DNA of 64,000 nt from Streptomyces sp. NBC_00708. GTDB taxonomy: Bacteria; Actinomycetota; Actinomycetes; Streptomycetales; Streptomycetaceae. The stretch lies in contig CP108997.1 of NCBI GenBank assembly GCA_036226585.1, positions 6,448,001-6,512,000 on the forward strand, read 5' to 3'. The notes beneath the pieces were generated by a model. That model ran no database searches. It was not told where the DNA came from and saw only the letters and a program-made list of their open reading frames with translations. The translations under genes were made by a program, and so were the position numbers. This document shows positions 1 through 15,662 of the stretch, one piece after another. How positions within the stretch are numbered: the stretch's first letter is position 1; every line of letters starts with the position of its first letter.

Positions 1-501
1 CAGGGTCACGTCCACGGCGAGCCCCGGGCCCGTGACGTGCTGGACGATCACGTCGTCGGCGCGCGAGACGAAGACCCGGCCGCACCGGCTCTCGCAGGCG
101 GCCGTGATCTGACCGGTGGCGAAGTCGACGGAGCGCCGGTAGTCCGCGAGCGGGTCCGGGGGCGCGTTGCCGGGGACGGGGCGGACGCGGGTCCGGAACG
201 CGGGGTGGAAGGGCTGCACCCACACCAGGGGCCGCCCCGCACCGAAGTGCTCCGCCGCCAGGGTGTCCCCGGACAACAGGGCGCTCTGCAACCGGTCCAG
301 CCGGTCCGCGAGTTCGGGCGGACGGACGTGCTCACTGCCGTTGGGCCGTACCAGGGTGTGGTGGGTGACGACCACCCGGTCGTCGGCCGGGTCGCCGTAC
401 ACCATGGCCCCGTGCCGGCCGTTGCCCGCGAGGAAGGCGTCCTCCCAGCGGGCGGCGGGGCGCGGCTCCCAGGTGCCGTCGATGTCCGTGCGTCCGGTCA
501 T
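1..501 (-). CDS. GH95-type alpha-L-fucosidase (N-terminal part; cut by window edge)
   Basis: Only the first 167 residues are visible; the gene continues beyond position 1. The start has the pattern of the GH95 / glycosyl-hydrolase-65N-like N-terminal domain: a tryptophan, then DAFLAGNGRHGAMVYG, then a VVTHHTL segment. In the family this beta-sandwich precedes an (alpha/alpha)6 catalytic barrel, which is not visible here. The ATG overlaps the stop codon of the GH42 gene by four bases (ATGA), so the two are translationally coupled at the distal end of the operon. No signal peptide is seen, so a cytoplasmic enzyme is likely. In the context of xyloglucanase, beta-galactosidase and alpha-xylosidase it would remove terminal alpha-1,2-fucose from xyloglucan oligosaccharides. 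That substrate is inferred; alpha-galactosidase activity is also known in the family. Confidence 0.75.
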   Translation of the reverse strand, partial: MTGRTDIDGTWEPRPAARWEDAFLAGNGRHGAMVYGDPADDRVVVTHHTLVRPNGSEHVRPPELADRLDRLQSALLSGDTLAAEHFGAGRPLVWVQPFHPAFRTRVRPVPGNAPPDPLADYRRSVDFATGQITAACESRCGRVFVSRADDVIVQHVTGPGLAVDVTL

Positions 502-2474
502 GGCGCGGTGCTCCGCAGCACGGCGACGCCGTAGCGGCCGAGCGCGATCCGGTCCGTCACCGACCGCCCGGTCAGCAGGTCCTCGTACGCGCCGGGGACG
601 GCCACGGTGACCATCTCCTGGCGGTGGTGCAGCAGGAACAGCAGCTCGCCCCGGCGCACCGCCTCCACACCCTCCGGCAGTCCGGGCAGCACCGGCTCCG
701 CACCGGCCTCCCGGACCACCTCGGCCAGGAGCGCCCGCAGCGCCCGGGGCTCCGGAAGCGTCGACACGTACACGGCCCGGCCCCTGCGCAGCACGGCCGG
801 CAGCCCGGCCAGCTCGCCGTCGCGGTAGGCCACGAGCACCTCGGCGTCGTCCGCCGCCTCCAGCTCCTCCGACCAGAGGGTGCCCCGGAAACCGTCGCAC
901 TCCACGGTGGCGTCCGCCTCCAGCGGCCACCACTCGTGCAGCGTGGCGATGCCGAACAGCTCGCGCAGCCGTGCGTCCATCCCGCCCGGCCTGATCCGGT
1001 CGTCCACGTCCGCGATACCGGTGAAGAAGCCGCACACCAGCCGCCCGCCGTCCCGCACGTACGCCACGAGGTTGTCGATGGCCGCGTCGCCGAGCAGATA
1101 GAGGTGCGGGACGACGACCGCCTTGAACCGGCTCAGGTCGGCGTCGGGGCGGGCGAAGTCGGTGGGCGTGCCGTTCTCCCACAGGGCGCGGTGCCAGCGC
1201 CCCACCACCTCGGCGTAGTCCAGCAGCCTGGAGGGGCTGCCTTCCTGGGCGCCCGCCCACCAGGCGTCCCAGTCGTGCAGGACCGCCACGTCGGCGCGCA
1301 CCTCGGTGCCGGCCACGGCCGGGCCGAGCGCGGCGAGTTCGGCCCCCAGGCGCCTCGTCTCGCGGAAGGAGCGGCCGTGCTCACCGGCGTGGCCGAGCAT
1401 CCCGGAGTGGAACTTCTCCGATCCCTGCCGGGACTGCCGCCACTGGAAGTAGCAGATCGCGTCGGCCCCGCGCGCCACCGACTGGAGCGACCAGAGCCGG
1501 TTCAGGCCCTCCGGCTTGGGGTGGTTGACGCCCCGCCAGTTCACCGCGCCCGCCGCCTGCTCCATCAGCATCCACGGGCCGGCGGCCTGCGAGCGCGTCA
1601 TGTCGGCGAGCATCGCGTTGTACTGCCCGCCCCACGGGTCGCGCGGGTCCGGGTAGACGTCGACCGAGACGATGTCCTCCTCGGCCGACCAGGCCCAGGC
1701 GTCCTGCCCCGACCACAGCGGCATGAAGTTCGTCGTCACCGGAATGTGCGGGGTGTGCCGGGCGACGATGTCCCGCTCCGCCACGAAGCACTCCAGCAGC
1801 GCGTCCGACGTGAAGCGCTTGAAGTCCAGCACCTGCGTCGGGTTCTTCATGTACTGCGCCTTGCGCGGCGGCAGGATCTCCGTCCACGCGTCGTAGCGCT
1901 GGCTCCAGAAGGCCGTGCCCCAGGCCTCGTTGAGGGCGTCGAGCGTCCCGTACCGGCTGCGCAGCCAGCGGCGGAAGTGGCCCGCCGTCTCGTCGCACCA
2001 GCAGTGCGTGCAGTACTCGTTGTTGATGTGCCACACGGTGAGCGCGGGGTGCTGCGCGTACCGGGCGGCGAGATCCTCGGTGAGCGCGGCGGCATAGCGG
2101 CGGTACACGGGTGAGCTGGCGCAGAACTGCTGCCGCGAGCCGTACCAGACCACCGACCCGTCCTCCGCGCGCGGCAGGGTCTCCGGGTGCCGGGCGCCCA
2201 TCCAGGGCGGCGGGGACGCGGTCGGGGTGGCGAGCACGACGCCGATGCCGTGCGCGTGCATCAGGTCCATCAGCCGGTCCAGCCAGCCGAACTCCCGCGC
2301 CCCCGGGCGGGGTTCGATCTTCGCCCAGGAGAAGACGCCGAGGGTGACCGAGTTGACGCCGGCCTCCTTCATCAGCCGGACGTCGTCCTCCCACACCTCC
2401 TCGGGCCACTGCTCGGGGTTGTAGTCGCCTCCGAAGAGGATGCGGCCACGTGCCGCGTCGCGCAGGGACGGCAT
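498..2474 (-). CDS. GH42 beta-galactosidase
   Basis: 658 residues, a normal GH42 length. The TIM barrel begins near residue 13 (LFGGDYNPEQWPE). The acid/base is probably E153 in HINNEYC, and the nucleophile E305 in MLMEQAAG. C155, C158 and C160 (CTHCWC) match the zinc-site cysteines of the family. A trimerisation domain (about 380-590) and a small C-terminal beta domain follow. There is no signal peptide, so it should be cytoplasmic. It lies 15 bp after the GH74 stop and overlaps the fucosidase start, inside a leftward operon with an ABC sugar importer. Expected reaction: removal of non-reducing beta-galactose, here plausibly from xyloglucan side chains taken up as oligosaccharides. Family assignment is strong; exact substrate is inferred. 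Confidence 0.93.
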   Translation of the reverse strand: MPSLRDAARGRILFGGDYNPEQWPEEVWEDDVRLMKEAGVNSVTLGVFSWAKIEPRPGAREFGWLDRLMDLMHAHGIGVVLATPTASPPPWMGARHPETLPRAEDGSVVWYGSRQQFCASSPVYRRYAAALTEDLAARYAQHPALTVWHINNEYCTHCWCDETAGHFRRWLRSRYGTLDALNEAWGTAFWSQRYDAWTEILPPRKAQYMKNPTQVLDFKRFTSDALLECFVAERDIVARHTPHIPVTTNFMPLWSGQDAWAWSAEEDIVSVDVYPDPRDPWGGQYNAMLADMTRSQAAGPWMLMEQAAGAVNWRGVNHPKPEGLNRLWSLQSVARGADAICYFQWRQSRQGSEKFHSGMLGHAGEHGRSFRETRRLGAELAALGPAVAGTEVRADVAVLHDWDAWWAGAQEGSPSRLLDYAEVVGRWHRALWENGTPTDFARPDADLSRFKAVVVPHLYLLGDAAIDNLVAYVRDGGRLVCGFFTGIADVDDRIRPGGMDARLRELFGIATLHEWWPLEADATVECDGFRGTLWSEELEAADDAEVLVAYRDGELAGLPAVLRRGRAVYVSTLPEPRALRALLAEVVREAGAEPVLPGLPEGVEAVRRGELLFLLHHRQEMVTVAVPGAYEDLLTGRSVTDRIALGRYGVAVLRSTAP

Positions 2475-2489
2475 GATGTCTCCCGTTCC

Positions 2490-4733
2490 TTACTGGGGGT
2501 CTGCGTACTGGATGCCGCGGCCGTTGGTGCCGAGGTAGACGCGGCCATGGACGCGGGGGTCACCGGTGATCACTTCGCCGGTCCAGCCCCACTGGTGGGA
2601 GTCGTCGTTGACGCGCACCCAGCTGCGGCCCGCGTCGTCGGAGCGCAGCACCGCCACACCGTCGTACGCCGCCGAGACCCGCCCGGTCTGGAAGACGGCC
2701 GGATAGCCCGCCCCGGCCCCGCGGCCCCGCACCGGCGCGGCCCTGCCGAAGCCCAGCGCGTGCGAGGCCTGGCAGCCGGGCACGGCCGTGAAGGTGAGCC
2801 CGCCGTCCGTGGACCGGAACAGGCCGTTGTCCTTCGCGGACAGCCACAGGTCACCGCTGCGGCCGGGCGCCGCCGCCACCTTGAACTGCGCGTCCCCGGA
2901 GGGGAGTCCGGTTGCGCCCCGGGTGAAGGTCGCGCCCCCGTCCCGGGAGAGGTGCACGGCACCCGTATCGGTGTCGTACACGTAGAAACGCCGCGGGTCG
3001 ACCGGGTCCGCGACCGGGGTGCCTCCCTTGGGGAAGGACGCCACCTCGGCCCAGCTCGCACCGCCGTCGGCGGACCGGTGGGCGGGGTACTTGGTGCCGT
3101 CCCAGTGGATGAACGACCACAGCAGGGTCGCACCGTCCGCCGAGACCGCGATCGGTCCCGGGGCGGAGGGCGCGATCGCGGGCTGGGCGGCGAACGGCTG
3201 CCAGCTCCGGCCGCCGTCGCGGGAGAAGGCCCCGGCCGCGTCGGAGCCGGACGGCCAGCCCGTGCGCACCACGTACGAGGGCTTCAGCGCGGCGAGGGCG
3301 AGGCCGGTGGCGGTGCCGGACACCGGGGAGGAGGCCATGCCCCGGGACGGGGACGAGGTCAGCGAGTCGTGGTACATCACCCCGATGTCGCCGAGGCCGC
3401 TCAGGAGCCGGGCGCCGTCCCGGCCGGGCGGGGCGACGAGGAAGCGCACCGAGGACTCCTCCAGGCCCCGGATCTCCGGCGCCCAGTGGACGAGGTCCCG
3501 CGTCCCGAAGACCGTCGCGCCGGTCCCGTACACGATGTGGTGCGAGTCGAACGGGTCGACGGCGACGGCCTGGATCCACCAGCCGAACTTGGCCGCGTCC
3601 CCGCCCCAGCGCAGATACGGGGTCTCCGAGACGTCCACCACGGCGGTGTCCTTGAGCGAGACCCAGCTCGCGCCGCCGTCGGTGGACCGGAACACCGTGT
3701 CGATCTGCCCCCACCGGTTGTTGGTGGTGACGACGAGCGTGCCGGTGCGGCGCGCGTCGACGGCCACCCCGCCGTAGCCGAAGCCGTCACCGGCGGCGGC
3801 GTCGGGCGCCACCGGGGTGACCTCGCTCCAGGCCCCCGTCACGGTGTCGAGCCGGTGCACCGAGCCGTCGGACTGCCCGTTGGGCCCCGGGGCGTCGGCG
3901 TAGGTGACGTACAGCGCCCGCCCCCGGGCGTCGTACGCGGCCCGCACCGGCACCTTCACCGACGCGCTCCCGGACGGCTGTCCGGGCACCGCCTCCCAGC
4001 CGCCCCTGCCGTCCGTACGGTAGAGCGCGCTGCCGCCGTCGCCCCAGCCCGCGTACACCGCGCGGCCCGCCGCGACCAGGAACATCACGCCCTGGCCGGT
4101 CTCCGACGGGGCGGCCGGGAAAGCGGCCGGCGCCCAGGTCGCGCCCCGGTCCGTGGAGCGCAGCAGCCCGTCGTGCCGGGTGCCCAGCCAGAGCGTCCCG
4201 CTGTCCCGGGGATCCACCAGCAGCCGTTCACCGGCGCCGCGCCCGTCCTCGTTCGCACCGAGCCGCACGGTCAGGTCGGCCCGCTTCCAGGTCGCGCCCC
4301 GGTCGTCGGAGCGCAGCACCGCTCCGGGGGACGCCCAGGACTGCGCGTACGTGCCGCAGGCCAGGTACAGGCGGTCCGGGTGGGACGGGTCGACGGCCAT
4401 CGCCTCGATGCCGAGGAGGTTCCAGTCGTCCCAGCCGATGTGGTCGGTGAGCGGGGTCCAGCGGGCCCGCGCCGCGTCCCAGCGGTAGGCGCCGCCGATG
4501 TCGGTACGGGCGTAGGCCAGGCCCTTCACCGACGGGTGGAACAGCAGGCCGGTGACGAACCCGGTGCCGCCGATCGCGGCCGTCCGCCAGCGGTGCGGCC
4601 GGTGCCGGCCGTCGGGGCGGTGGTCCCGGGCTACCGCGGTGCCCGCGGCCGGGAGGGCGGTGGCAGCGGCGGCGACGGCCGCCGTGGCGAGCACGGTTCT
4701 GCGACGGGGCGTGGGCGCGGACGAAGCGCGCAT
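2490..4733 (-). CDS. secreted GH74 endo-xyloglucanase
   Basis: 747 residues. A twin-arginine signal (RRRTVLA followed by an Ala-rich stretch ending near residue 35) predicts Tat export. The mature protein is a double seven-bladed propeller with repeated BNR/Asp-box motifs (RSDDRGATW, RSTDRGATW, RSTDGGASW). Classic GH74 segments are present: GFVTGLLFHP, LAYARTDIGGAYRWD and WNLLGIEAMAVDP. By family comparison, D78 (ARTDIGG) and D449 (SGLGDIG) are the probable catalytic pair. No carbohydrate-binding module is attached. I chose ATG at 4733 because GGAAGG lies seven bases upstream and the Tat motif follows at once. The gene is 47 bp after a permease gene, so the depolymerase is co-expressed with the importer of its products. 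Confidence 0.92.
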   Translation of the reverse strand: MRASSAPTPRRRTVLATAAVAAAATALPAAGTAVARDHRPDGRHRPHRWRTAAIGGTGFVTGLLFHPSVKGLAYARTDIGGAYRWDAARARWTPLTDHIGWDDWNLLGIEAMAVDPSHPDRLYLACGTYAQSWASPGAVLRSDDRGATWKRADLTVRLGANEDGRGAGERLLVDPRDSGTLWLGTRHDGLLRSTDRGATWAPAAFPAAPSETGQGVMFLVAAGRAVYAGWGDGGSALYRTDGRGGWEAVPGQPSGSASVKVPVRAAYDARGRALYVTYADAPGPNGQSDGSVHRLDTVTGAWSEVTPVAPDAAAGDGFGYGGVAVDARRTGTLVVTTNNRWGQIDTVFRSTDGGASWVSLKDTAVVDVSETPYLRWGGDAAKFGWWIQAVAVDPFDSHHIVYGTGATVFGTRDLVHWAPEIRGLEESSVRFLVAPPGRDGARLLSGLGDIGVMYHDSLTSSPSRGMASSPVSGTATGLALAALKPSYVVRTGWPSGSDAAGAFSRDGGRSWQPFAAQPAIAPSAPGPIAVSADGATLLWSFIHWDGTKYPAHRSADGGASWAEVASFPKGGTPVADPVDPRRFYVYDTDTGAVHLSRDGGATFTRGATGLPSGDAQFKVAAAPGRSGDLWLSAKDNGLFRSTDGGLTFTAVPGCQASHALGFGRAAPVRGRGAGAGYPAVFQTGRVSAAYDGVAVLRSDDAGRSWVRVNDDSHQWGWTGEVITGDPRVHGRVYLGTNGRGIQYADPQ

Positions 4734-4780
4734 GGCGAACACCTTCCGGACAGGGGGAGAGGGGGAGGAACGGCGCCGGG

Positions 4781-5743
4781 TCAGCCCTTCACGGCGCCGG
4801 TGAGCATGCCCTTCTGGAAGTGCTTCTGGACGAACGGCGACAGCACCGCGACCGGGATCAGCGCGAGGATCATGACGGCCATCTGCACGGCGAGGCTGTT
4901 GATCTGCCCGTTGCTGACGGCCGCGCCCATCGCCCCCGGCGGCACCTGGTGCTGGAGGACCAGCTGACGCAGGATCATCTGGAGCGGGTACTTGTCGCTG
5001 TCCTGGATGTAGAGCATCGCGTTGAACCACTGGCTCCAGTAGCCGACCGCGTAGAACAGCGAGATCACCGCGATCACCGCACGCGACAGCGGCATGATGA
5101 TCTGGAGCAGGATGCGCCACTCGCCGGCCCCGTCGATGCGGGCCGCGTCGATGAGTTCGGGCGCGGTGTCCATGAAGAAGCCGCGCAGGACGAGCACGTT
5201 GAACACGCTGATCGCGCTGGGCAGGATCATCGACCAGTAGCTGTCGCTCAGCCCGATCCCGGTGACGAGCAGATACGTCGGGATGAGACCGGCGCCGAAG
5301 AACATGGTCGCCATCAGCGTCATCAGCAGCGGCCGGTGCGCGTACGAGTCGCGGCGGCTGAGCCCGTACGCGCAGAGGATCGAGACGATCATGCTGACGG
5401 CCGTACCGACGACGGTGAGGCCGACGCTGACGGCGGCCGCACGGGTCACCGCGCCCCCGCTCAGCAGCTCCTTGTACGCCACGAACGTGATGTGCCGGGG
5501 CCAGACGACCAGGCCGCCGGCGTCGTTGATGGTCTTGGTGTCGGAGAGGCTGGTCACCAGCACCACCCAGATCGGGATGATGACGACCGCGCAGATCGCG
5601 ATCAGCCCGAAGCCCTTGAAGGCGAGTCCCGCCTTCGTCGGCTCCTCCTCCCACACCGGGCGCGGTTCGACGCGCAGGGCGCGCTGGAGGCGTGTCTCCG
5701 TGCGGGCGGCCGGGTCCGTCCTCTGGTCCAGGAGAGTTGTCAT
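4781..5743 (-). CDS. ABC sugar transporter permease, MalG/LplC type
   Basis: 320 residues with about six membrane segments, the first near residue 48 (GLIAICAVVIIPIWVVLV). The EAA-type cytoplasmic loop (DAARIDGAGEW, then IMPLSRAV) contacts the ATPase in this family. It ends with the typical LSPFVQKHFQKGMLTGAVKG. The start overlaps the stop of the upstream permease (ATGA), so the two membrane subunits are translated together. No ATPase gene is in the cluster; Streptomyces sugar importers of this class commonly share the multitasking ATPase MsiK, which I infer here. Likely cargo is xyloglucan oligosaccharide, judged from the flanking hydrolases. Confidence 0.92.
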   Translation of the reverse strand: MTTLLDQRTDPAARTETRLQRALRVEPRPVWEEEPTKAGLAFKGFGLIAICAVVIIPIWVVLVTSLSDTKTINDAGGLVVWPRHITFVAYKELLSGGAVTRAAAVSVGLTVVGTAVSMIVSILCAYGLSRRDSYAHRPLLMTLMATMFFGAGLIPTYLLVTGIGLSDSYWSMILPSAISVFNVLVLRGFFMDTAPELIDAARIDGAGEWRILLQIIMPLSRAVIAVISLFYAVGYWSQWFNAMLYIQDSDKYPLQMILRQLVLQHQVPPGAMGAAVSNGQINSLAVQMAVMILALIPVAVLSPFVQKHFQKGMLTGAVKG

Positions 5744-6831
5744 TTCTTGGAGTACACCCCCTGCTCGCCCAGCATGTGGGCGACCTTGTTGGCACCCAGC
5801 ACCATGGCGACGCTGAACAGCCCCTTGAAGATGCCGGCGGCGGCCGCGTAGCCGAAGTCGCCGGTCTTGATGCCTGTCCACCAGATGTAGGTGTCCAGGA
5901 TTTCCGAGGCCCCCGCGCCGACCTGGTCGCGCTGGAGCAGGATCTGCTCGAAGTCGAGGTTGAGCGCGCTGCCCACCCGCAGGACGAGCAGCAGGGCGAT
6001 GACCGGGCGCAGCGCGGGCAGCGTGACGTGCCACATGCGGCGCCAGCGGCCGGCCCCGTCGACGGCGGCGGCCTCGTACAGATCGGTGTTGACGGCGGCG
6101 AGCGCGGCCAGGAAGACGATGACGCCCCAGCCGGCGTCCTTCCACACGGCCTGCGCGCTGACCAGGAACTTGAAGAAGCCCGGGTCGGTCATCAGGTCGA
6201 AGCCCTCGTGGCCGTGCTCGCGCAGCCACTGGGCGACCAGTCCGGCGCCGCCGAACATCTGCTGGAAGACGGTGACGACCAGCACCCAGGAGAAGAAGTG
6301 CGGCAGGTAGACGACCGCCTGCACCCAGGCCCGCACCCGCGCGCTCATGATGGTGTTGAGCAGGAGCGCGACGGCGATGGGGATGGGGAAGAACAGGACG
6401 AGCTGGGTCACGAAGATGACCAGCGTGTTCACGAGGACTTCCCAGAAGCGGTAGTCCTCGAAGATCCGGGTGAAGTTGTCGAACCCGACGAACGGGCTGC
6501 CCGTGATGCCCAGGTCGTAGACGTCGTAGTCCTGGAAGGCCACGATGTTCCCGAGCAGCGGGATGTAGTTGAAGATCAGCAGCAGCGCGATGGCCGGCAG
6601 CGTCATCAGGATCAGCGTGCGGTCGCGCCGCAGCCGCTGACGCCAGGTGATGCCGCCCGCTTGGGGACCGCCCTGCTCCTTGCGGGGTCTGGGGACGCGG
6701 CCCGCCCGGGACCTGCCCGCGCTCCTCGTCTCCCCGCCGTCACCGTCCCCGGTGCCGCTCCCGCCGGCCGGGGCGCTCGCCCCGTCGGCGGTGCGGTCCG
6801 GGTCGGCCGCGACCGTGGCCCGTGCCTTCAC
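5740..6831 (-). CDS. ABC sugar transporter permease, LplB/MalF type
   Basis: 363 residues, longer than the usual ~310 because of a Gly/Arg/Ala-rich N-terminal extension of about 65 residues before the first membrane helix (LILMTLPAIALLLIFNYIPL). An EAA loop (YEAAAVDGAGRWRRMWHVTLP) marks the ATPase contact. It fits the LplB branch, which works with large lipoprotein binding proteins. The start is GTG at 6831 with GGGAG six bases upstream; a nearby ATG at about 6843 opens only a five-codon reading frame. It follows the binding-protein gene by 100 bp and overlaps the next permease by four bases. Confidence 0.9.
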   Translation of the reverse strand: MKARATVAADPDRTADGASAPAGGSGTGDGDGGETRSAGRSRAGRVPRPRKEQGGPQAGGITWRQRLRRDRTLILMTLPAIALLLIFNYIPLLGNIVAFQDYDVYDLGITGSPFVGFDNFTRIFEDYRFWEVLVNTLVIFVTQLVLFFPIPIAVALLLNTIMSARVRAWVQAVVYLPHFFSWVLVVTVFQQMFGGAGLVAQWLREHGHEGFDLMTDPGFFKFLVSAQAVWKDAGWGVIVFLAALAAVNTDLYEAAAVDGAGRWRRMWHVTLPALRPVIALLLVLRVGSALNLDFEQILLQRDQVGAGASEILDTYIWWTGIKTGDFGYAAAAGIFKGLFSVAMVLGANKVAHMLGEQGVYSKK

Positions 6832-6931
6832 CGTGTGCTCCCCATGTCGTGCTCCTGACCCCGGCCGCCGGGCTGTGTGTGCCCGGCGGCCCCTTCCTTC
6901 TCGTACGTACGTGTGGTGTGCCGCGTACGCG

Positions 6932-8605
6932 TCAGTTGCCGGAGCCGTTCTTGTCGAGAATGTCCTGGTACCAGTCGCGCAGCTTGTCGCCGCCGCTCTT
7001 CTTCCAGGTGTTCACCGCGTCGTCGATGTCGCTGACCTTCTTGCGGCCGCGGCGGATGTCCTTCTGGAGGTCGTCGAACGGGGTGTAGAGCGAGGCGTAG
7101 CGCTGCGGCTCGACGACCTGCATGCCGAAGAAGAGGGGCTTCTTGATGTGCGGGGCCTGGCGCGCCATCCAGCCGGCGTAGTCCTTGGCCAGCTGCGGCT
7201 GGTCGGGGTAGGCGATGGAGGTGGGCGGCGAGGCGACGAACAGGAACGTGGAGGGCTGGGCCTCCTCGACACCCTGCGGGGTGTACGTGGGGGAGCCGTC
7301 CTTGATCGTGTAGTGGGTGCCCTTGACGCCGTAGTTGGTGAGCATGAACTCCTCGGTGCCGAACGGCGCCGCGGCGTAGTCGGCTATCGCGAGGAACTCC
7401 TCGATCTTCTCCTTGGACAGCTTCTTGCTGAGGAAGGTGAAGATGCCCGCCGGGTCGTCCTGCCACAGCAGCGGCTCGCCGCCGTCGTGGCTGAAGAAGT
7501 CCAGCGCCTGCATGTCGAACTTCGGGTTGGCGGAGGCCTGTTCGGTGACCATGCCCTTCCAGCCGCCGGTGCCGTCGTTGTACATGACGACATGGCCGCT
7601 GGTGAAGCGGATCTTGGCGTCGGCGTCCTTGTTGGCCTCGGCGTCGGGGTGGACGTAACCGCCGTCGTGGAGCTTGCGGGCGAAGGCCAGCGCCTCGCGG
7701 TACTCCTTCGTCTCGATCTTGTGGACCAGCTTGCCGTTCTCCAGCTGCCAGTAGTGCGGCGCGTCCGGGAGCAGGCCGAAGATCTTCTGGATACAGGTCC
7801 ACAGGTCGTCGAAGGCCCAGACCTTCTTCTTGGGCGCCGTGTACTCCTTGCCGAAGGCCAGCAGGTCGTCCGCGCTCGCCGGGACGGCGCCGGAGCCGAT
7901 CAGGTCCTTGCGGTAGAAGATCGCGTTGCCGATGACCGGCGTCGGCATGGGCAGCCCGCGCAGCTTGCCGCCGAAGACCGAGTACTGCCAGGCGCCGGTC
8001 GGGATGTTGGCCAGGTTGGGGTACTTCTTGACGGCGTCGCCCGCCAGATACGGGGAGAGGTCGGCGAACTTGGCGGTGATGGCGTTGCGGATCTGCCCCT
8101 GCATGTTCCAGCCGGGGATCGTCATGACGTCCGGGATGTCCGAGCCGGCGAGGACCGCGCCGATCTTGTCCTGGTAGGTGTTGCCGTCCTGCGGGTCGAA
8201 GTTCAGCTTCGCGCCGACCGCCTTGTTCACGGCCGAGTAGTACGGGTTGTTCTTCTTCGGGACCGTGCCCCACAGCGGGGTCATCACCCGGAACTCCGAG
8301 CCCTTGCCCGGGACGGACTTGACCGAGACCACCAGCGGGTCCGGCAGCTTGGTGAAGCCGGGGCTCGAACCGTTGACGCCGGGGACATCGGGCTGGACCA
8401 GGTTCAGCGGGGCGTAGCTCGGTACGACCTTCTTCAGGGCCTTGCCCGTGGTCGTGCCCTCCTTGCTCCCGGCACCGGAGCCGGAACCGCCGCACGCGGC
8501 GAGCAGCGGCACCCCGCCGGCCACGGCGACGGCCGCGACCGCGCCGGTGGCGAGGAAGCTTCTCCGGCTCGGGGCCGTGGTGGAGGGGGAGGAATTCGGC
8601 GTCAT
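6932..8605 (-). CDS. ABC transporter substrate-binding lipoprotein (LplA-like, family 1)
   Basis: 557 residues. The N-terminus combines a twin-arginine motif (SRRSFLATG) with a lipobox (LLAACGGS, lipidated Cys at about 38), so it is probably exported by Tat and anchored as a lipoprotein. The rest is a family-1 extracellular solute-binding fold of the long LplA type, rich in aromatic residues. It is the first gene of the leftward operon; its promoter must lie in the 457-bp divergent region that holds two LacI-type palindromes. It should capture oligosaccharides released by the GH74 enzyme and deliver them to the permeases. Sugar specificity is inferred from neighbours only. Confidence 0.9.
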   Translation of the reverse strand: MTPNSSPSTTAPSRRSFLATGAVAAVAVAGGVPLLAACGGSGSGAGSKEGTTTGKALKKVVPSYAPLNLVQPDVPGVNGSSPGFTKLPDPLVVSVKSVPGKGSEFRVMTPLWGTVPKKNNPYYSAVNKAVGAKLNFDPQDGNTYQDKIGAVLAGSDIPDVMTIPGWNMQGQIRNAITAKFADLSPYLAGDAVKKYPNLANIPTGAWQYSVFGGKLRGLPMPTPVIGNAIFYRKDLIGSGAVPASADDLLAFGKEYTAPKKKVWAFDDLWTCIQKIFGLLPDAPHYWQLENGKLVHKIETKEYREALAFARKLHDGGYVHPDAEANKDADAKIRFTSGHVVMYNDGTGGWKGMVTEQASANPKFDMQALDFFSHDGGEPLLWQDDPAGIFTFLSKKLSKEKIEEFLAIADYAAAPFGTEEFMLTNYGVKGTHYTIKDGSPTYTPQGVEEAQPSTFLFVASPPTSIAYPDQPQLAKDYAGWMARQAPHIKKPLFFGMQVVEPQRYASLYTPFDDLQKDIRRGRKKVSDIDDAVNTWKKSGGDKLRDWYQDILDKNGSGN

Positions 8606-8797
8606 TGCGTCAACCCTTCGAGGCGCACCAGGACGACACGCGGCGGGGCGACCGCCGTTCGGTTCCTGTGTCTGAGGTGGAGCGTTGCTGGCTGAGCCGG
8701 TGTCACCGGCCCCAGGTGAAGCGGTTCAACTGGAAGGCGGCTGCACGTGTCGCCGTCCCGGGAAAGCAAGGGCGCCGGGCGCCCCATCGAAGCTTCG

Positions 8798-8811
8798 TCG
8801 AAGCGCTTCGA
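8798..8811. promoter_or_regulatory. LacI-type operator palindrome, copy 1
   Basis: TCGAAGCGCTTCGA is a perfect 14-bp palindrome with the central CG typical of LacI/GalR-family operators. It lies 192 bp ahead of the binding-protein gene. A shorter perfect palindrome, CGAAGCTTCG, lies immediately before it at 8788-8797, so two half-turn sites sit in tandem. Confidence 0.7.
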
Positions 8812-8968
8812 TGTTGCAGCGAGGTTAAGTGAAGGGTCTGTGCGGCACAAGAGTTCGTTGCCGGATTCCTCCGACGCGTTTCCGAACCGTTTCCTGGGAC
8901 GGGCAGGGCGTGCTGGGTGTGGAGTCCGGTCACCGCCCCTTGACACGCGCGGGGTTGGCCCTTGAGCA

Positions 8969-8982
8969 TCGAAGCGCTTCGA
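8969..8982. promoter_or_regulatory. LacI-type operator palindrome, copy 2
   Basis: Identical in all 14 bases to copy 1 (TCGAAGCGCTTCGA), 157 bp further right and 80 bp ahead of the GH3 start. The flanking CA before and GA-rich DNA after differ from copy 1, so only the palindrome itself is conserved. This supports one regulator acting on both divergent transcripts. Confidence 0.7.
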
Positions 8983-9062
8983 AAGATCGTCCGAGGCCTG
9001 ACCGAGGCCCGCACGATGCGCCGGCACCACCAGACCTCCCACCTTTGAAGAAGGACCCGCAC

Positions 9063-11927
9063 GTGACGGAACAACCGCAGCCCTTCCGCGACCCGCGGCT
9101 GCCCTTCGCCAAGCGCGTCGACGATCTGCTCCAGCGGCTCACGCCGGACGAGCGCGTCGCGATGCTGCACCAGTTCGCGCCGGCGGTCGGCCGGCTCGGG
9201 CTCGGCGCCTTCCGCACCGGCCAGGAGGCCCTGCACGGCGTCGCCTGGATGGGGGAGGCCACTGTCTTCCCGCAGGCCGTCGGCCTCGGCGCCACCTGGA
9301 ACGACGACCTGGTGCGCCGCATCGGCGAGGCCGTCGGCGACGAGGTCCGCGCCAAGCGCGCCCAGGACGACCGGGTCGGCCTCAACGTCTGGGCCCCCAC
9401 CGTCAACCTGCTGCGCCACCCGCTGTGGGGGCGCGGCGAGGAGGGGTACTCCGAGGACGCCGGGCTCACCTCCGCCATCGCGGTCGCCTACACCCGGGGC
9501 CTGCGCGGCGACCACCCGCACTACTGGCGCACCGCCCCGGTCCTCAAGCACTGGCTCGCCCACAACAACGAGACGGACCGCGACACCTCGTCCTCCTCGG
9601 TCCGCCCGAGGGTGCTGCACGAATACGACCTCCGGGCCTTCCGCGACGCCGTCCGCGCGGGCGCGGTGGCCGGAGTGATGCCCGCGTACAACCTGGTCAA
9701 CGGGCGCCCCAACCATGTGTCGCCGCTGCTCTCCCGGCACCTGCGGAGCTGGACCGAACAGCCCCTGGCCGTCTGCTCCGACGCGGGCGCGCCCACCAAC
9801 CTGGTCGACTCCGAGCACTACTTCGACACCCACGAGGAGGCGACCGCCGCCGCCCTGCGCGCCGGCGTCGACAGCTTCACCGACCACGGCCAGGACTCCT
9901 CCGTCATGACCGGCCGCATCCAGCGGGCCCTGGAACGCGGACTGCTCGACGAGCACGACATCGACACCGCCGTCCGCCGCCTGCTCCACATGCGCTTCGC
10001 GCTCGGCGAGTTCGACCCCGAACTGGACCCGTACGCGGACACCACCGCCCTCGACACCGAGGAGCACCGGGCGCTCGCCCTGGAGGCCGCCGAGCAGGCG
10101 GTCGTGCTGCTCAAGAACGACGGGCTGCTCCCGCTGGACCCCGCCGCCGGCAGAACCGTCGCCGTCGTCGGGCTCCTCGCCGACGCCTGCAAGCTCGACT
10201 GGTACAGCGGCACCCTGATCCACCGATCCACCCCGCTCGACGGACTGCGCGAGCGCTTCGGCGCCGACCGGGTGATCCACGCCGAGGGCGCCGACCTGGT
10301 CCGGATCAAGTGCGCCGACGGCTGGCTGCACATCCCCCAGGCCGACCCGGCCGGGGACGCGGCGCGCGGTGCGGAGGGCGCACTCGATCCCGCGCTCCTC
10401 GCCGGCCGCACCGACCTGCCCCCGCTGACCTGCTCCGACACCCCGTCCGAGCTGGCGCTCGTGGACTGGGGCAACGGCGTGATCACCCTGCGGGAACCGG
10501 GCGGACGCTATCTCTCCGTCGCCGAGGACGGCTATGTACGCGCCTCCGCGGACGAGCCGGGCGGCTGGATCGTCCAGGAGACCTTCCGGTGGGAAGCGGT
10601 GGAAGGCCATGCCGGCGGTCACCGCCTTCTGCACATCGGAACGGGTGGGTATGTCTCAGTCGCCGCCGACGGCGTAAAGGTTGCCGCCCCGGGCGAGGAA
10701 AATTCCGCGGCCACCGGGACCGTCTTCGAGACCGAGGTGACCGAGCGCGGTGAGGACGCCGTCGCCCGTGCCGCCGCAGCCGCCGACACCGTGATCGTGG
10801 TCGCCGGCAACGACCCGCACATCAACGGCCGCGAGACCGAGGACCGGGCCACCCTCGACCTGCCCGCCCAGCAGGAACGCCTCTGGCGCGCCGCCCACGC
10901 CGCCAACCCGCGCACGGTCCTGGCGGTCACCTCCGCCTACCCGTACGCCCTGACCGACGCCGCCGCCACCCTGCCCGCGCTGCTGTGGACCGCGCACGGC
11001 GGGCAGGCCGCGGGCACCGCGCTCGCCCGTGTTCTCGCCGGCGACGTCTCCCCGGCCGGGCGGCTGCCGCAGACCTGGTACGCCTCCGACGCGGAACTGC
11101 CCGGCCTGCTCGACTACGACATCATCGGCTCCCGGCAGACCTACCTCTACTACAAGGGCACCCCGCTCTACCCGTTCGGCCATGGGCTCACGTACAGCGA
11201 TTTCACCTACAGCGACCTGACCGCCGTACGCGAGGGCGAGCTGCTGCACGTCTCGCTGACCGTCACCAACACCGGCACCGTCGCCTCCGACGAGGTCGCC
11301 CAGCTGTACGTGCGGGCCGTGGCCCCGTCCGTCGCCCGGCCGCTGCGCCAGCTGGCCGGGCACCGCCGGCTGCACCTGGCACCCGGGGCCGCCGAGCGGG
11401 TGGCGTTCACCGTGCCGGCCGAGGAGCTCGGCCACTGGGACGTGGCGCACGGCCGCTGGACCGTCGAGCCCGGCGCGTACGAGATCCAGGCGGGCGCCTC
11501 CAGCGCGGACATCCGGACCGTCACGGTCGTCACCGTGGACGGCGAACCGGCCGGGCCGCGCCCGCTCCTGGCCCGTGGTCTGGAGGCGGCCGACTACGAC
11601 GAGCAGCTGGGCACCGGGATCGTCGACCGGGCGAAGACGGACGGGGACGCGGTCACCGCCACCGCCGAGGCCAACGAACTCCTCTACCGACACTGCGACT
11701 TCGGTGCGGGCGTAAGCGGCGTCGAGGTATCCGCCTCGGGGGAGGGGGCCGTTCTGCTCACCGTGGACGGCACCACCGTCACCGTCCCGGTGCCCGCCAC
11801 CGACGGGCCCTACGACTACCGCACCCTCCGGGCCGGGCTGACCGCCGCCGGCGTGGGCGACCTGCGGATCGCCCTGCGCGGCACGGTCCGGCTGGCCCGG
11901 CTCGGCTTCACCGGAGCCGGCGAGTGA
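9063..11927 (+). CDS. GH3 beta-glucosidase with an inserted beta-trefoil-like segment
   Basis: 954 residues from the GTG at 9063, chosen because AAGGA lies just upstream and the open frame before it is not protein-like. The catalytic nucleophile is D240 (AVCSDAGAP). The second domain begins near residue 330 (AEQAVVLLKNDGLLPL) and a fibronectin-III-like domain occupies about 710-800. Between about 420 and 560 there is an extra segment rich in Gly, Tyr and Trp (GGRYLSVAEDGY, GTGGYVSVAADG), where some GH3 enzymes carry PA14. It looks fascin/beta-trefoil-like and may bind carbohydrate. No signal peptide, so an intracellular exo-enzyme is likely. It is the first gene of the rightward unit, 61 bp before the alpha-xylosidase, with which it could strip xyloglucan oligosaccharides stepwise. 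Beta-xylosidase activity is the alternative. Confidence 0.88.
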   Translation: MTEQPQPFRDPRLPFAKRVDDLLQRLTPDERVAMLHQFAPAVGRLGLGAFRTGQEALHGVAWMGEATVFPQAVGLGATWNDDLVRRIGEAVGDEVRAKRAQDDRVGLNVWAPTVNLLRHPLWGRGEEGYSEDAGLTSAIAVAYTRGLRGDHPHYWRTAPVLKHWLAHNNETDRDTSSSSVRPRVLHEYDLRAFRDAVRAGAVAGVMPAYNLVNGRPNHVSPLLSRHLRSWTEQPLAVCSDAGAPTNLVDSEHYFDTHEEATAAALRAGVDSFTDHGQDSSVMTGRIQRALERGLLDEHDIDTAVRRLLHMRFALGEFDPELDPYADTTALDTEEHRALALEAAEQAVVLLKNDGLLPLDPAAGRTVAVVGLLADACKLDWYSGTLIHRSTPLDGLRERFGADRVIHAEGADLVRIKCADGWLHIPQADPAGDAARGAEGALDPALLAGRTDLPPLTCSDTPSELALVDWGNGVITLREPGGRYLSVAEDGYVRASADEPGGWIVQETFRWEAVEGHAGGHRLLHIGTGGYVSVAADGVKVAAPGEENSAATGTVFETEVTERGEDAVARAAAAADTVIVVAGNDPHINGRETEDRATLDLPAQQERLWRAAHAANPRTVLAVTSAYPYALTDAAATLPALLWTAHGGQAAGTALARVLAGDVSPAGRLPQTWYASDAELPGLLDYDIIGSRQTYLYYKGTPLYPFGHGLTYSDFTYSDLTAVREGELLHVSLTVTNTGTVASDEVAQLYVRAVAPSVARPLRQLAGHRRLHLAPGAAERVAFTVPAEELGHWDVAHGRWTVEPGAYEIQAGASSADIRTVTVVTVDGEPAGPRPLLARGLEAADYDEQLGTGIVDRAKTDGDAVTATAEANELLYRHCDFGAGVSGVEVSASGEGAVLLTVDGTTVTVPVPATDGPYDYRTLRAGLTAAGVGDLRIALRGTVRLARLGFTGAGE

Positions 11928-11988
11928 ACCCCTCCCTCGCGCGTCTCCCCGTTCCTCCTCCTCCGGCTGCCCCAGGCAAGGAGTCCGC

Positions 11989-14268
11989 ATGAAGTTCACC
12001 GACGGCTTCTGGCTCATGCGTGAGGGCGTACGCGCCTCCTACGCGACCGAGATCCGTGATCTGCGCGTCAGCGCCGACCAGTTCACCGCGTACGCGGCGG
12101 TGAAACGGGTGGCCGCGCGCGGTGACACCCTCAACACCCCGCTCCTCACCGTCGACTGCTTCTCCCCGGCCGAGGGCATCATCGGCGTCCGCACCACGCA
12201 TCACGCCGGAAAGGCCCGGCGGGGTCCGGACTTCGTCCTCCCCGGGCTGGACCCGGCGGCCTCCGGGGCCCGCACCCGGCAGGACGGTGATGTCACCGAA
12301 CTCACCAGCGGGCCGCTGACCCTGCGGCTGGACCGCGACGGTCCGTACGGTCTGACCTTTCTCGACGCCGACGGCCGCCGCCTGACGGGCGTCGACACCA
12401 AGGGCACCGCCTTCGCCACCACCCCCGACGGGGTTCACCACATGGTCGCCCAACTCGCCCTGGACGTGGGCGAGAACGTCTACGGGCTCGGTGAGCGCTT
12501 CACCCCGTACGTCAAGAACGGGCAGAGCGTCGACATCTGGCAGGCGGACGGCGGCACCAGCAGCGAACTCGCCTACAAGAACATTCCGTTCTACCTCTCC
12601 TCGCGCGGCTACGGCGTCTTCGTCAACCACCCCGGCAAGGTCTCCTTCGAGATCGGCTCCGAGTCGGTCGGGCAGGTGCAGTTCAGCGTCGAGGACCAGT
12701 CGCTGGAGTACTACATCGTCGCCGGGCCGACGCCCAAGGAGGTGCTGGCCCGCTACACCGCGCTCACCGGCCGCCCCGCGCTCCCGCCGGCCTGGTCGTT
12801 CGGCCTGTGGCTGACGACGTCCTTCTGTACCTCGTACGACGAGGCGACCGTCACCTCGTTCGTCGACGGCATGGCGGAGCGCGACATCCCGCTCTCCGTC
12901 TTCCACTTCGACTGCTTCTGGATGCGCGAGTACCAGTGGTCGGACTTTTTGTGGGACCCGGACGTCTTCCCCGACCCGAAGGGCATGCTTGCCCGGCTCA
13001 AGGAACGCGGGCTCCGCATCAGCATGTGGATCAACCCGTACATCGCCCAGAAATCAGCCCTGTTCGCGGAGGGCGCCGAGCTCGGTCATCTCGTCCGCCG
13101 CCCCAACGGCGACGTGTGGCAGTGGGACCTGTGGCAGCCGGGCATGGCCCTCGTCGACTTCACCAGCCCCGCCGCCCGCGCGTGGTACACCGCCAAACTC
13201 CGTGTGCTGCTGGACCAGGGAGTCGACTGCTTCAAGACCGACTTCGGCGAGCGCATCCCCACCGACGTCGTCTGGCGCGACGGCTCCGACCCCGAGCGGA
13301 TGCACAACTACTACGCACAGATCTACAACAAGACGGTCTTCGACCTGCTGGAGAAGGAGCGCGGCCACGGCGAGGCGGTCCTCTTCGCCCGGTCCGCCAC
13401 GGCCGGCGGCCAGCAGTTCCCGGTGCACTGGGGCGGGGACTGCTTCGCCTCCTTCACGGCGATGGCCGAGTCCCTGCGCGGCGGCCTGTCCCTCTCGCTC
13501 TCCGGGTTCGGCTTCTGGAGCCACGACATCGGCGGCTTCGAGGGCACTCCGGACCCGGCCGTCTTCAAGCGCTGGCTCGCCTTCGGCCTGCTCTCCTCGC
13601 ACAGCCGGCTGCACGGCAACGTGTCCTACCGGGTGCCGTGGGAGTTCGGCGAGGAGGCGGTCGACGTCGCCCGGAAGTTCACCCTGCTCAAGCACCGGCT
13701 GATGCCGTACCTGTACGGGGCCGCCGCCACCGCCCACCGCACGGGCGTCCCGATGATGCGGCCCATGCTCCTCGAATTCCCGGGCGACCCGACCACCCGC
13801 GTGTTGGACCGGCAGTACATGCTCGGCCCCGACCTGCTGGTGGCCCCGGTCTTCACGGAGGACGGGCAGGTCGAGTACTACGTCCCCGAGGGGACCTGGA
13901 CCCACCTGCTCACCGGCGAGACGGTCACCGGACCCGTCTGGCGCCACGAGACCCACGGCTTCGACAGCCTGCCGGTCCTCGTCCGCCCCGGAGCGGTCCT
14001 GCTCTGGGGCGGCGACGACCGGCGCCCGGACGGCGACTGGCTCGACGGGCTCACGCTGCGGGTGTTCGGCGGGGGTCCCGAGGGGAGCGGTACGACCGTC
14101 ACCGTGCCGGACCACGCGGGCGCCACGGCCGCCACCTTCCGGGTGGTGCGCGAGGGGGACACCCTCACGGTCACCTCCGAGCGCATCGACCGTCCGTACC
14201 GCGTGGTCGACGAGGCGACGGGGGCCACGGGGCAGGGGGCGGGCACGGTGACGGTGCGGGGGGCGTGA
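11989..14268 (+). CDS. yicI: GH31 alpha-xylosidase (YicI type)
   Basis: 759 residues, close to E. coli YicI in length. The nucleophile is D418 in CFKTDFGERIPTD and the acid is D484 in HWGGD, almost the same spacing as D416/D482 of YicI. The KTDFGE sequence, rather than the motif of alpha-glucosidases, favours alpha-xylosidase. AAGGAG six bases before the ATG is a strong ribosome site. No signal peptide. Expected reaction: release of alpha-1,6-linked xylose from the non-reducing end of xyloglucan oligosaccharides such as isoprimeverose. The xylose would feed xylA/xylB found 5 kb to the right. Confidence 0.92.
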   Translation: MKFTDGFWLMREGVRASYATEIRDLRVSADQFTAYAAVKRVAARGDTLNTPLLTVDCFSPAEGIIGVRTTHHAGKARRGPDFVLPGLDPAASGARTRQDGDVTELTSGPLTLRLDRDGPYGLTFLDADGRRLTGVDTKGTAFATTPDGVHHMVAQLALDVGENVYGLGERFTPYVKNGQSVDIWQADGGTSSELAYKNIPFYLSSRGYGVFVNHPGKVSFEIGSESVGQVQFSVEDQSLEYYIVAGPTPKEVLARYTALTGRPALPPAWSFGLWLTTSFCTSYDEATVTSFVDGMAERDIPLSVFHFDCFWMREYQWSDFLWDPDVFPDPKGMLARLKERGLRISMWINPYIAQKSALFAEGAELGHLVRRPNGDVWQWDLWQPGMALVDFTSPAARAWYTAKLRVLLDQGVDCFKTDFGERIPTDVVWRDGSDPERMHNYYAQIYNKTVFDLLEKERGHGEAVLFARSATAGGQQFPVHWGGDCFASFTAMAESLRGGLSLSLSGFGFWSHDIGGFEGTPDPAVFKRWLAFGLLSSHSRLHGNVSYRVPWEFGEEAVDVARKFTLLKHRLMPYLYGAAATAHRTGVPMMRPMLLEFPGDPTTRVLDRQYMLGPDLLVAPVFTEDGQVEYYVPEGTWTHLLTGETVTGPVWRHETHGFDSLPVLVRPGAVLLWGGDDRRPDGDWLDGLTLRVFGGGPEGSGTTVTVPDHAGATAATFRVVREGDTLTVTSERIDRPYRVVDEATGATGQGAGTVTVRGA

Positions 14269-15032: not shown

Positions 15033-15611
15033 ATGGTGCGTGCGGGCCTGACCGCGGAACGCCTGACCCGGGCCGGCGCCGAGCTGGCCGACGAGGTCGG
15101 CTTCGAGCAGGTGACCGTGTCGGCGCTGGCGCGGCGGTTCGACGTCAAGGTCGCGAGCCTCTACTCGCACCTGAAGAACTCCCACGACCTGAAGACCCGG
15201 ATCGCCCTGCTCGCCCTGGAGGAGATGGCCGACCGCGGCGCCGCCGCGCTCGCGGGCCGGGCCGGCCGGGACGCGCTGAGCGCCTTCGCCGATGTGTACC
15301 GGGACTACGCCCGCGAGCACCCCGGCCGTTACGCGGCGGCCCAGTTGAAGCTGGACCCCGAAGCGGCGGCGGCCAGTGCGGGCGGCCGGCACGCGCGGAT
15401 GACCCGGGCCATCCTGCGCGGCTACGACCTGACCGAGCCGGACCAGACGCACGCGGTGCGGCTGCTCGGCAGTGTCTTCCACGGGTTCGTCAGCCTGGAG
15501 GCCCAGGGCGGGTTCAGCCACAGCGCCCCCGGCTCGCAGGAGTCCTGGGACCGGACCCTGGACGCGCTGGACGCCCTCCTCCGCAACTGGCCGGCGCCCC
15601 GGCCCTCGTAA
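15033..15611 (+). CDS. TetR/AcrR family regulator with WHG-type C-terminal domain
   Basis: 192 residues. The N-terminal helix-turn-helix lies at about 8-55 (VTVSALARRFDVKVASLYSHLKN). The C-terminal ligand domain resembles the TetR_C_33 / WHG class (AFADVYRDYAREHPGRYA, ending LLGSVFHGFVSLEAQGGF). GAGGAGG precedes the ATG. An SGNH hydrolase gene follows 51 bp later in the same direction and may be its target along with its own promoter, which carries a clear 19-bp inverted repeat. The ligand is unknown. Confidence 0.88.
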   Translation: MVRAGLTAERLTRAGAELADEVGFEQVTVSALARRFDVKVASLYSHLKNSHDLKTRIALLALEEMADRGAAALAGRAGRDALSAFADVYRDYAREHPGRYAAAQLKLDPEAAAASAGGRHARMTRAILRGYDLTEPDQTHAVRLLGSVFHGFVSLEAQGGFSHSAPGSQESWDRTLDALDALLRNWPAPRPS

Positions 15612-15662
15612 CCCCGGACCCCGAGCCCCGGCCCTTGTCACCCCGCGACCCCAGGTGGAGCC

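Follow-up and report, generated by a model that had tools for sequence, protein, structure and literature searches.

We analyzed a 64,000-nt stretch of DNA (the window; C1:6448001-6512000) from a 7.65-Mb genome whose close relatives are Streptomyces. At its left edge lies a cluster of glycoside hydrolase (GH) and importer genes that is very probably a xyloglucan-utilization locus of the Gram-positive kind, which uses an ATP-binding cassette (ABC) importer, is controlled by a LacI-type regulator, and forms the hub of a wider regulon. The first-pass annotation of the window had described a probable complete xyloglucan locus in which GH74, GH42, GH31, and GH3 enzymes occur together with an oligosaccharide importer. 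Domain and profile matches confirmed this combination. As to completeness, the families are present, but the window cuts the cluster, and most of GH95, as well as GH12 and LacI, lies beyond base 1, where the first-pass annotation had no view of them. Gene content, conserved gene order, operator conservation, and the co-occurrence of regulator and operator are observed directly. At the level of sequence comparison, the xyloglucan reading is supported by conserved synteny, by a regulator and an operator tied to the locus, and by operator-linked side-chain and backbone enzymes encoded elsewhere.

A divergent promoter at 8606-9062 separates two operons located on opposite strands. Outward from it, the minus-strand row consists of the binding protein, two permeases, GH74, GH42, GH95, and GH12, and the plus-strand row of GH3 followed by GH31; the LacI gene is convergent to the far end of the long minus-strand row. 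We infer the enzyme specificities, the binding-protein ligand, LacI binding, and the nature of the inducer. Secreted GH74 and GH12 would cut xyloglucan to oligosaccharides, which would be imported by the lipid-anchored binding protein and the two permeases, together with an ATPase whose gene lies elsewhere. Once these are in the cytoplasm, GH95 would take off terminal α-1,2-L-fucose (or L-galactose), GH42 would take off galactose, and the YicI-type GH31 and GH3 would alternate in removing xylose and glucose from the non-reducing end. LacI would occupy TCGAAGCGCTTCGA palindromes, paired between the divergent operons and also present in front of the LacI gene, and would be released on binding an imported oligosaccharide or one of the breakdown products. 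This palindrome would also recruit an unlinked GH43 gene and a second GH31 gene (GH31b) that faces a second sugar importer. The single depolymerase acting outside the cell in the first-pass annotation is too few, since a secreted GH12 ends the operon and the genome holds a second GH74, with a CBM2 domain.

Paired palindromes, the LacI regulator, and gene order

The divergent promoter contains two exact TCGAAGCGCTTCGA palindromes at a distance of 171 bp, and the LacI gene is preceded by one exact copy and one copy with a single mismatch. The entire 7.65-Mb genome contains five exact sites (none for the reversed control), and three of the five fall in this cluster. In the window alone, the excess over shuffled sequence was modest (two matches compared to a shuffle mean of 0.37, with two mismatches allowed; 4 of 100 shuffles reached two), so the argument for an operator is carried by the genome-wide and cross-species counts. 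The LacI protein has a helix-turn-helix and a periplasmic-binding-like domain, as LacI-type regulators do.

In 150 evenly sampled Streptomyces genomes, that of the window included, the locus, defined by a GH42 of at least 65% identity, was found in 71. At least two exact palindromes are present in 71/71 of these genomes and in 7/79 of the others (Fisher 3.8e-35; Fisher values overstate independence here, as the genomes are related). A LacI orthologue (at least 69% identity) is likewise encoded in all 71. When the genomes are sorted by regulator, the exact palindrome occurs in 85/85 genomes with the orthologue and in 9/65 without it. Operators per locus were counted with one mismatch allowed in 122 loci, six of which have no GH3 start in the fetched stretch; the divergent promoter contains exactly two sites in 116/116 loci, and 230 of these 232 sites are exact. 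One locus (L060) retains both operators between GH3 and GH42 although its importer and GH74 are missing. Exact palindromes paired 100-113 bp apart were also seen in three genomes (G173, G174, and G176) of another family of the order.

Spacings between the paired operators group at 159-161, 168-172, and 179-184 bp. Helical phasing of the pair, as expected for looping, was considered and rejected, because the cluster-level test on 116 loci fails (R 0.20, p 0.46). With distinct spacing values of the 116 loci, p was 0.003 and the best period was 11.3; with 59 loci and 10.5 bp, p on clusters was ~0.005 for the preset period and 0.34-0.38 when the period was scanned. A sigma-70 promoter scan of the divergent region gave no match.

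The synteny check across Streptomyces proposed in the first-pass annotation was run on 60 loci (23 named loci from a binding-protein search, 20 with a near GH74, and 20 without one, less three duplicates). The same order and orientation of GH42, both permeases, the binding protein, and divergent GH3 was found in 56 of the 60 other-Streptomyces loci, so the arrangement is not due to chance. Of the four exceptions, L017, L070, and L071 are without some of the genes in the fetched stretch, and L060 is without the importer. In a draw of 119 genomes from the order, GH42 matches with E 1e-230 or better occur in 47, all in one of the five genera searched. The ends of the rows vary more: GH95 is missing in 9/58 loci, GH12 is missing in 13/58 (part of these misses being cut ends, as in L021, whose genome has GH12 on another contig), and GH31 adjoins GH3 in 31/58. 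A different GH31 lies near GH12 or LacI in L053, L057, and L059. A GH51-type arabinofuranosidase gene is found by one locus (L055, 361-3105) and a GH36-like gene by another where GH95 is absent (L051, 735-2990); such accessory genes are possibly fitted to other side chains. Rhamnogalacturonan-lyase-type genes adjoin GH12 in two GH95-less loci (L056, 2966-5725; L044, 1637-3139).

The remaining two exact sites of the genome are positioned directly upstream of the GH43 gene and between the genes for a second binding protein and GH31b. The GH43 promoter has one exact site and an overlapping one-mismatch site; GH31b is 78% identical to the first GH31 and faces the second importer, whose binding protein is 409 aa long. 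In a distant Streptomyces (L065), a 71% identical GH43 lies within the locus region; upstream of it are two imperfect sites, one with a single mismatch and the other with two. We also fetched 20 operator places from relatives and read their neighbors. Two of them are the locus LacI itself (L109 and L114), and at two others (L111 and L123) a YicI-type GH31 gene is accompanied by a LacI paralogue. Five have suitable enzymes close by: in L113, a GH74 with two sites, one carrying a mismatch; in L120, a GH5 with CBM_X2 and CBM46; in L122, GH43 and a GH51-type gene, where the two sites are separated by 167 bp; in L110, a GH36-like gene paired with GH43, opposite an SGNH esterase; and in L119, an SGNH esterase, with a GH74 at a greater distance. 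The genes of the predicted regulon (GH43, GH31b, GH74, GH5-CBM46, GH43/GH51, GH36-like, and SGNH esterases) fit xyloglucan side chains plus backbone and support the xyloglucan reading.

Enzymes, importer, and the readings they allow

The catalytic residues named in the first-pass annotation, E153/E305 in GH42, D418/D484 in GH31, and D240 in GH3, are all present at those numbers. GH31 matches YicI over its full length (935 bits), with D418 aligned to YicI D416, and it scores 1210.8 bits against the NCBIfam alpha-xylosidase model NF007940 (cut-off 606). The closest solved chain to GH74 is 5jwz (E 2.8e-140); 2cn2, named xyloglucan hydrolase, matches at E 2.8e-136, and several of the top solved relatives carry the names xyloglucanase or xyloglucan hydrolase; D78 and D449, which we take to be catalytic, occupy the conserved TDIGG/GDIG sites. 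Among solved chains, GH12 is closest to NopAA (6sdu, 1.8e-45), a xyloglucanase. Alignment of GH95 to solved chains of the family shows that N348, N350, E537, and D640, to which we ascribe active-site roles, are retained. In GH3, the C-terminal catalytic domain carries an insert, with 200 profile positions spread across residues 347-711. Export signals are Tat-like in GH74, Sec-like in GH12, and Tat-like with a lipobox in the binding protein, and no signal was seen on the N-termini of GH42, GH95, GH3, and GH31; signal peptides and lipobox were judged by eye (Table 1).

No ABC ATPase was found among the cluster proteins scanned; Streptomyces importers share the ATPase MsiK. The same scan found no SusC/SusD pair, transport being represented by ABC permeases and a binding lipoprotein. 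Two importer types, with binding proteins ~50% identical, occur across loci, and the type changes at least five times on a GH42 tree.

Table 1. Genes and predicted operators of the cluster (window positions unless prefixed by C1)
Feature	Position	Strand	Evidence or remark
LacI regulator	C1:6444459-6445463	+	PF00356 1.5e-17, PF13377 1e-26; left of window
Secreted GH12 glucanase	C1:6445516-6446229	-	PF01670 2.8e-19; left of window
Whole GH95 gene	C1:6446261-6448501	-	746 aa, no signal peptide seen; PF22124 5e-60
GH95, 5' part (first 167 codons, 501 bases in window)	1..501	-	cut by window edge
GH42 beta-galactosidase, cytoplasmic	498..2474	-	PF02449 3e-149; no signal peptide seen
GH74, predicted endo-xyloglucanase	2490..4733	-	Tat-like signal peptide; no CBM found
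ABC importer permease	4781..5743	-	PF00528; NCBIfam sugar-permease models under cut-off
ABC importer permease	5740..6831	-	PF00528; NCBIfam sugar-permease models under cut-off
Predicted oligosaccharide-binding lipoprotein of importer, 557 aa	6932..8605	-	PF13416; Tat-like signal, lipobox C38
Predicted LacI operator TCGAAGCGCTTCGA, binding-protein side	8798..8811
Predicted LacI operator TCGAAGCGCTTCGA, GH3 side	8969..8982		171 bp from first
GH3 exo-beta-glycosidase, cytoplasmic	9063..11927	+	Fn3-like + CBM6 domains; no signal peptide seen
YicI-type GH31 alpha-xylosidase, cytoplasmic	11989..14268	+	no signal peptide seen

For the permease at 4781..5743, the start codon was a choice. GH12 was recognized in the translated sequence that separates LacI from GH95 and then confirmed by its domain. 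Downstream of the locus, a TetR-like gene (15033-15611, by eye) is followed by an SsfX3-like SGNH esterase gene (15663-16850). This pair (15033-16850) was rejected as part of the cluster, with no operator nearby within two mismatches; the esterase adjoins the locus only in near relatives and is not counted as part of the system.

Several findings weigh against a dedicated xyloglucan locus under its own regulator. The nine orthologue-less genomes that still have the site show that the operator does not belong to this LacI alone, and five of them hold a LacI paralogue of 50-57%. At 11 of the 20 fetched operator places, the neighbors are other or unclear genes or LacI paralogues, with no recognizable xyloglucan gene: a different type of binding protein in L107, L116, L117, L121, and L126 (family tested in L107, others judged by N-termini), a DHDPS-like gene or its GntR neighbor with the palindrome beside or inside it in L112, L115, and L124 (family tested in L115), LacI paralogues of 48% in L108 and L125, and one unscanned gene in L118. 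Thus, other LacI-family regulators have this palindrome in common with the locus LacI. The top NCBIfam score of GH3 is with a beta-xylosidase model, under its cut-off. GH95 is divergent (179 bits to the closest solved chain), and its Thr346, at a position that we take to be His in AfcA, a fucosidase of Bifidobacterium bifidum, counts in the same direction. Finally, the binding protein shows weak likeness to AlgQ1-type proteins: its profile, built from 18 sequences, reaches AlgQ1 at E 0.0075 and, at E 0.045-0.091, three sequences of solute-binding proteins, 5gx8 among them, all weak matches. Its structure model had a mean pLDDT of 39.6 and was not used for fold search. The binding proteins of the second kind at L107, L116, L117, L121, and L126 are probably under a LacI paralogue, as is that of L130, where a gene of this kind was likewise seen with a palindrome upstream or near.

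Could the cluster serve a wider range of plant substrates, namely a mix of beta-glucans, galactosides, and xylosides (as cello-, xylo-, and galacto-oligosaccharides), with xyloglucan one among several? We know of no role for YicI-type alpha-xylosidases or GH95 enzymes on cellulose or plain xylan, and several top solved chains related to GH74 bear the name of a xyloglucanase or xyloglucan hydrolase. No CebR box occurs in the cluster within two mismatches, whereas the GH74-CBM2 gene of the same genome has a perfect one. A broad substrate range would agree with the breadth of the GH42 and GH3 families, with the GH3 best scores to beta-xylosidase and mixed models, under cut-off, and with the grouping of GH9, GH12, and GH74 as endoglucanases elsewhere (PMC4898821; this and the other papers cited are represented by excerpts). 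On balance, we regard a broad mix as highly improbable.

A different assignment concerns GH3, which could be an isoprimeverose-releasing oligoxyloglucan hydrolase, with the YicI-type GH31 then splitting isoprimeverose; the second operator-linked importer and GH31b would import and split isoprimeverose directly. The regulon does contain two YicI-type GH31 paralogues (78% identical), one facing the smaller binding protein, and solved isoprimeverose-producing enzymes are among the GH3 matches. Those enzymes score 159-177 bits, compared to 250 for the best match, and the GH3 of Ruminiclostridium cellulolyticum leaves XXXG alone until the xylosidase has acted (PMC4780118). An isoprimeverose-releasing GH3 is thus unlikely, and alternating action of GH31 and GH3 is preferred.

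For GH95, the family assignment and the active-site residues stand, and the fucosidase label is less sure than the first-pass annotation had it, since L-galactose may be accepted too. The residue at position 346 is Thr in the solved chains 7kmq, 4ufc, and 2rdy, as in the locus enzyme, and also in the alpha-L-galactosidase BACOVA_03438. An alpha-L-galactosidase-type or dual enzyme, with L-galactosylated xyloglucan among its substrates, would agree with a Thr where AfcA has His. However, 7kmq is a fucosidase of the Xanthomonas xyloglucan cluster; as it shares the Thr, residue 346 does not decide between fucose and L-galactose, and we consider this alternative doubtful.

In front of the second GH74 of the genome (910 aa with CBM2, ~45% identical to the locus GH74), 72 bp from the start, is a perfect CebR box, TGGGAGCGCTCCCA; this gene has no operator of the locus type, even with three mismatches allowed. 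CebR control of the cluster was rejected, with no TGGGAGCGCTCCCA within two mismatches and one three-mismatch site at 1246. Control of Streptomyces cellulases by CebR has been published (PMC4898821). Like the locus regulator, CebR is a LacI/GalR-family repressor with a 14-bp palindrome, sharing the core AGCGCT, and it controls carbohydrate-active enzymes (PMC4898821), as the locus regulator is predicted to do; the palindromes themselves differ (TGGGAGCGCTCCCA compared to TCGAAGCGCTTCGA). In this genome, the CBM2-bearing GH74 is under a CebR box and the operon of the CBM-less GH74 under TCGAAGCGCTTCGA, which suggests cellulose-side and xyloglucan-side control of the two GH74 genes, respectively. 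The CBM2-bearing GH74 of S. scabies is listed without a detected CebR site in the excerpted text of PMC5332605, and the split of GH74 genes by two palindromes is therefore not general.

GH74 gain and loss across loci

Among the 71 locus genomes of the 150-genome draw, a locus-type GH74 match was found in 48 (truncated in G049 and cut by a contig end in G139). Twenty of the 23 without it have another GH74. On a quick GH42 tree of 120 loci, from which L173 (the locus of G049) was left out, GH74 presence changes 22 times over 119 loci, at least 17 of the changes being forced by starred branches; this number is not a rate, as the loci were partly picked by GH74 state. Remnants of GH74 between permease and GH42 in L012, L013, L014, L028, and L030 show loss directly. 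GH74 is also missing from the locus of SirexAA-E, a laboratory Streptomyces with a record of gene deletions (PMC4898821). The distances of GH74 and GH42 agree (Mantel r 0.854, p 0.001, n 73), which favors descent with losses over repeated import. The idea that the importer is always kept was ruled out by L060, which has no importer, and by L173, a wrecked locus in which the binding protein, permeases, and GH74 are all fragments.

Tentatively, the locus could have come apart into two halves across Streptomyces. The private one, mostly kept, would comprise LacI with its two operators, the importer, and the trimming enzymes; the public one, made up of secreted GH74 and in part GH12, would be dispensable. 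Some lineages might then be oligosaccharide scavengers, living on xyloglucan cut by neighbors or by another GH74 of their own. We searched 22 genomes behind the named loci, that of L033 being excluded. There was no GH74 match in two of the 22, those of L014 (G153, also without GH12) and L019 (G158, which has GH12), and the genome of L028 (G167) has only GH74 fragments and no GH12. A search of nine genomes for GH9 found none in those of L028 and L030 and one in that of L014, which weakens the scavenger reading for L014. In the same number of genomes, a search for GH5-CBM46 gave no match, but with no positive control among them this proves little. In the most extreme example, Streptomyces sp. 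NBC_01669 (L028), the locus GH74 is broken, and no intact GH74, GH12, GH9, or GH5-CBM46-like gene was found.

Related systems and biological meaning

The Bacteroides ovatus XyGUL and the Xanthomonas xyloglucan cluster are said to hold a compact set of families for every xyloglucan linkage. Both reportedly use outer-membrane TonB-type transport, unlike the Gram-positive ABC importer here. The R. cellulolyticum cluster (Xyl31A, Glu3A, Gal42A, and SBP2458) is closer, with cytoplasmic GH31, GH3, and GH42 clustered with an ABC importer (PMC4780118). In that organism, the backbone is cut outside, oligosaccharides are imported, and galactose and then xylose and glucose are removed inside, the same steps as proposed here; GH42 strips galactose, after which Xyl31A and Glu3A alternate, as proven experimentally, and the binding protein binds XXXG with a Kd of 3.65 nM (PMC4780118). 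It differs in its depolymerases, which are cellulosomal, and in its regulation, as the cluster encodes a two-component system that has an AraC-like regulator; the excerpted text names GH95 genes for the genome but not for the cluster (PMC4780118). In contrast, the Streptomyces locus has GH74, GH12, and GH95 after the importer genes and LacI with paired palindromes.

In Anaerocellum bescii, Athe_2052-2054 likewise comprise two permeases and a binding protein, here of 551 aa; the ATPase is again encoded at another place, and a GH31 is part of the importer locus (PMC12710961, a 2025 preprint). Structural neighbors of that importer, AlgQ1 and 5GX8, are among our weak profile matches (PMC12710961). 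Its GH74 (CelF) and a putative GH42 are at other loci, and binding by that importer has been measured (PMC12710961).

Some, though not all, soil Streptomyces tested grow on xyloglucan, namely four of six strains (PMC11475409). In the tomato rhizosphere, the xyloglucanase Xgh74A and an alpha-xylosidase are among the bacterial genes linked to host loci, and they appear in a section on Cellvibrio and Streptomyces (PMC9203511). The excerpted text of a review of hemicellulase gene control mentions no Streptomyces xyloglucan regulator (PMC10766802). In line with the first-pass annotation, which knew of no detailed description in Streptomyces, we found no description of a dedicated xyloglucan locus or regulon for this genus in open-licence literature, judged by titles and the opening lines of abstracts, a weak negative. 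Three features are new here: a LacI regulator and its predicted operators, an importer row that includes GH74, GH12, and GH95, and a modular distribution over the genus.

Much plant litter is decomposed by Streptomyces, in which the control of cellulose use by CebR is well studied. If the operator and the regulator hold up at the bench, the xyloglucan regulon would be predictable in other Streptomyces genomes. That the secreted enzyme is lost again and again while the importer mostly stays would offer, for soil bacteria, a testable example of how public goods are lost.

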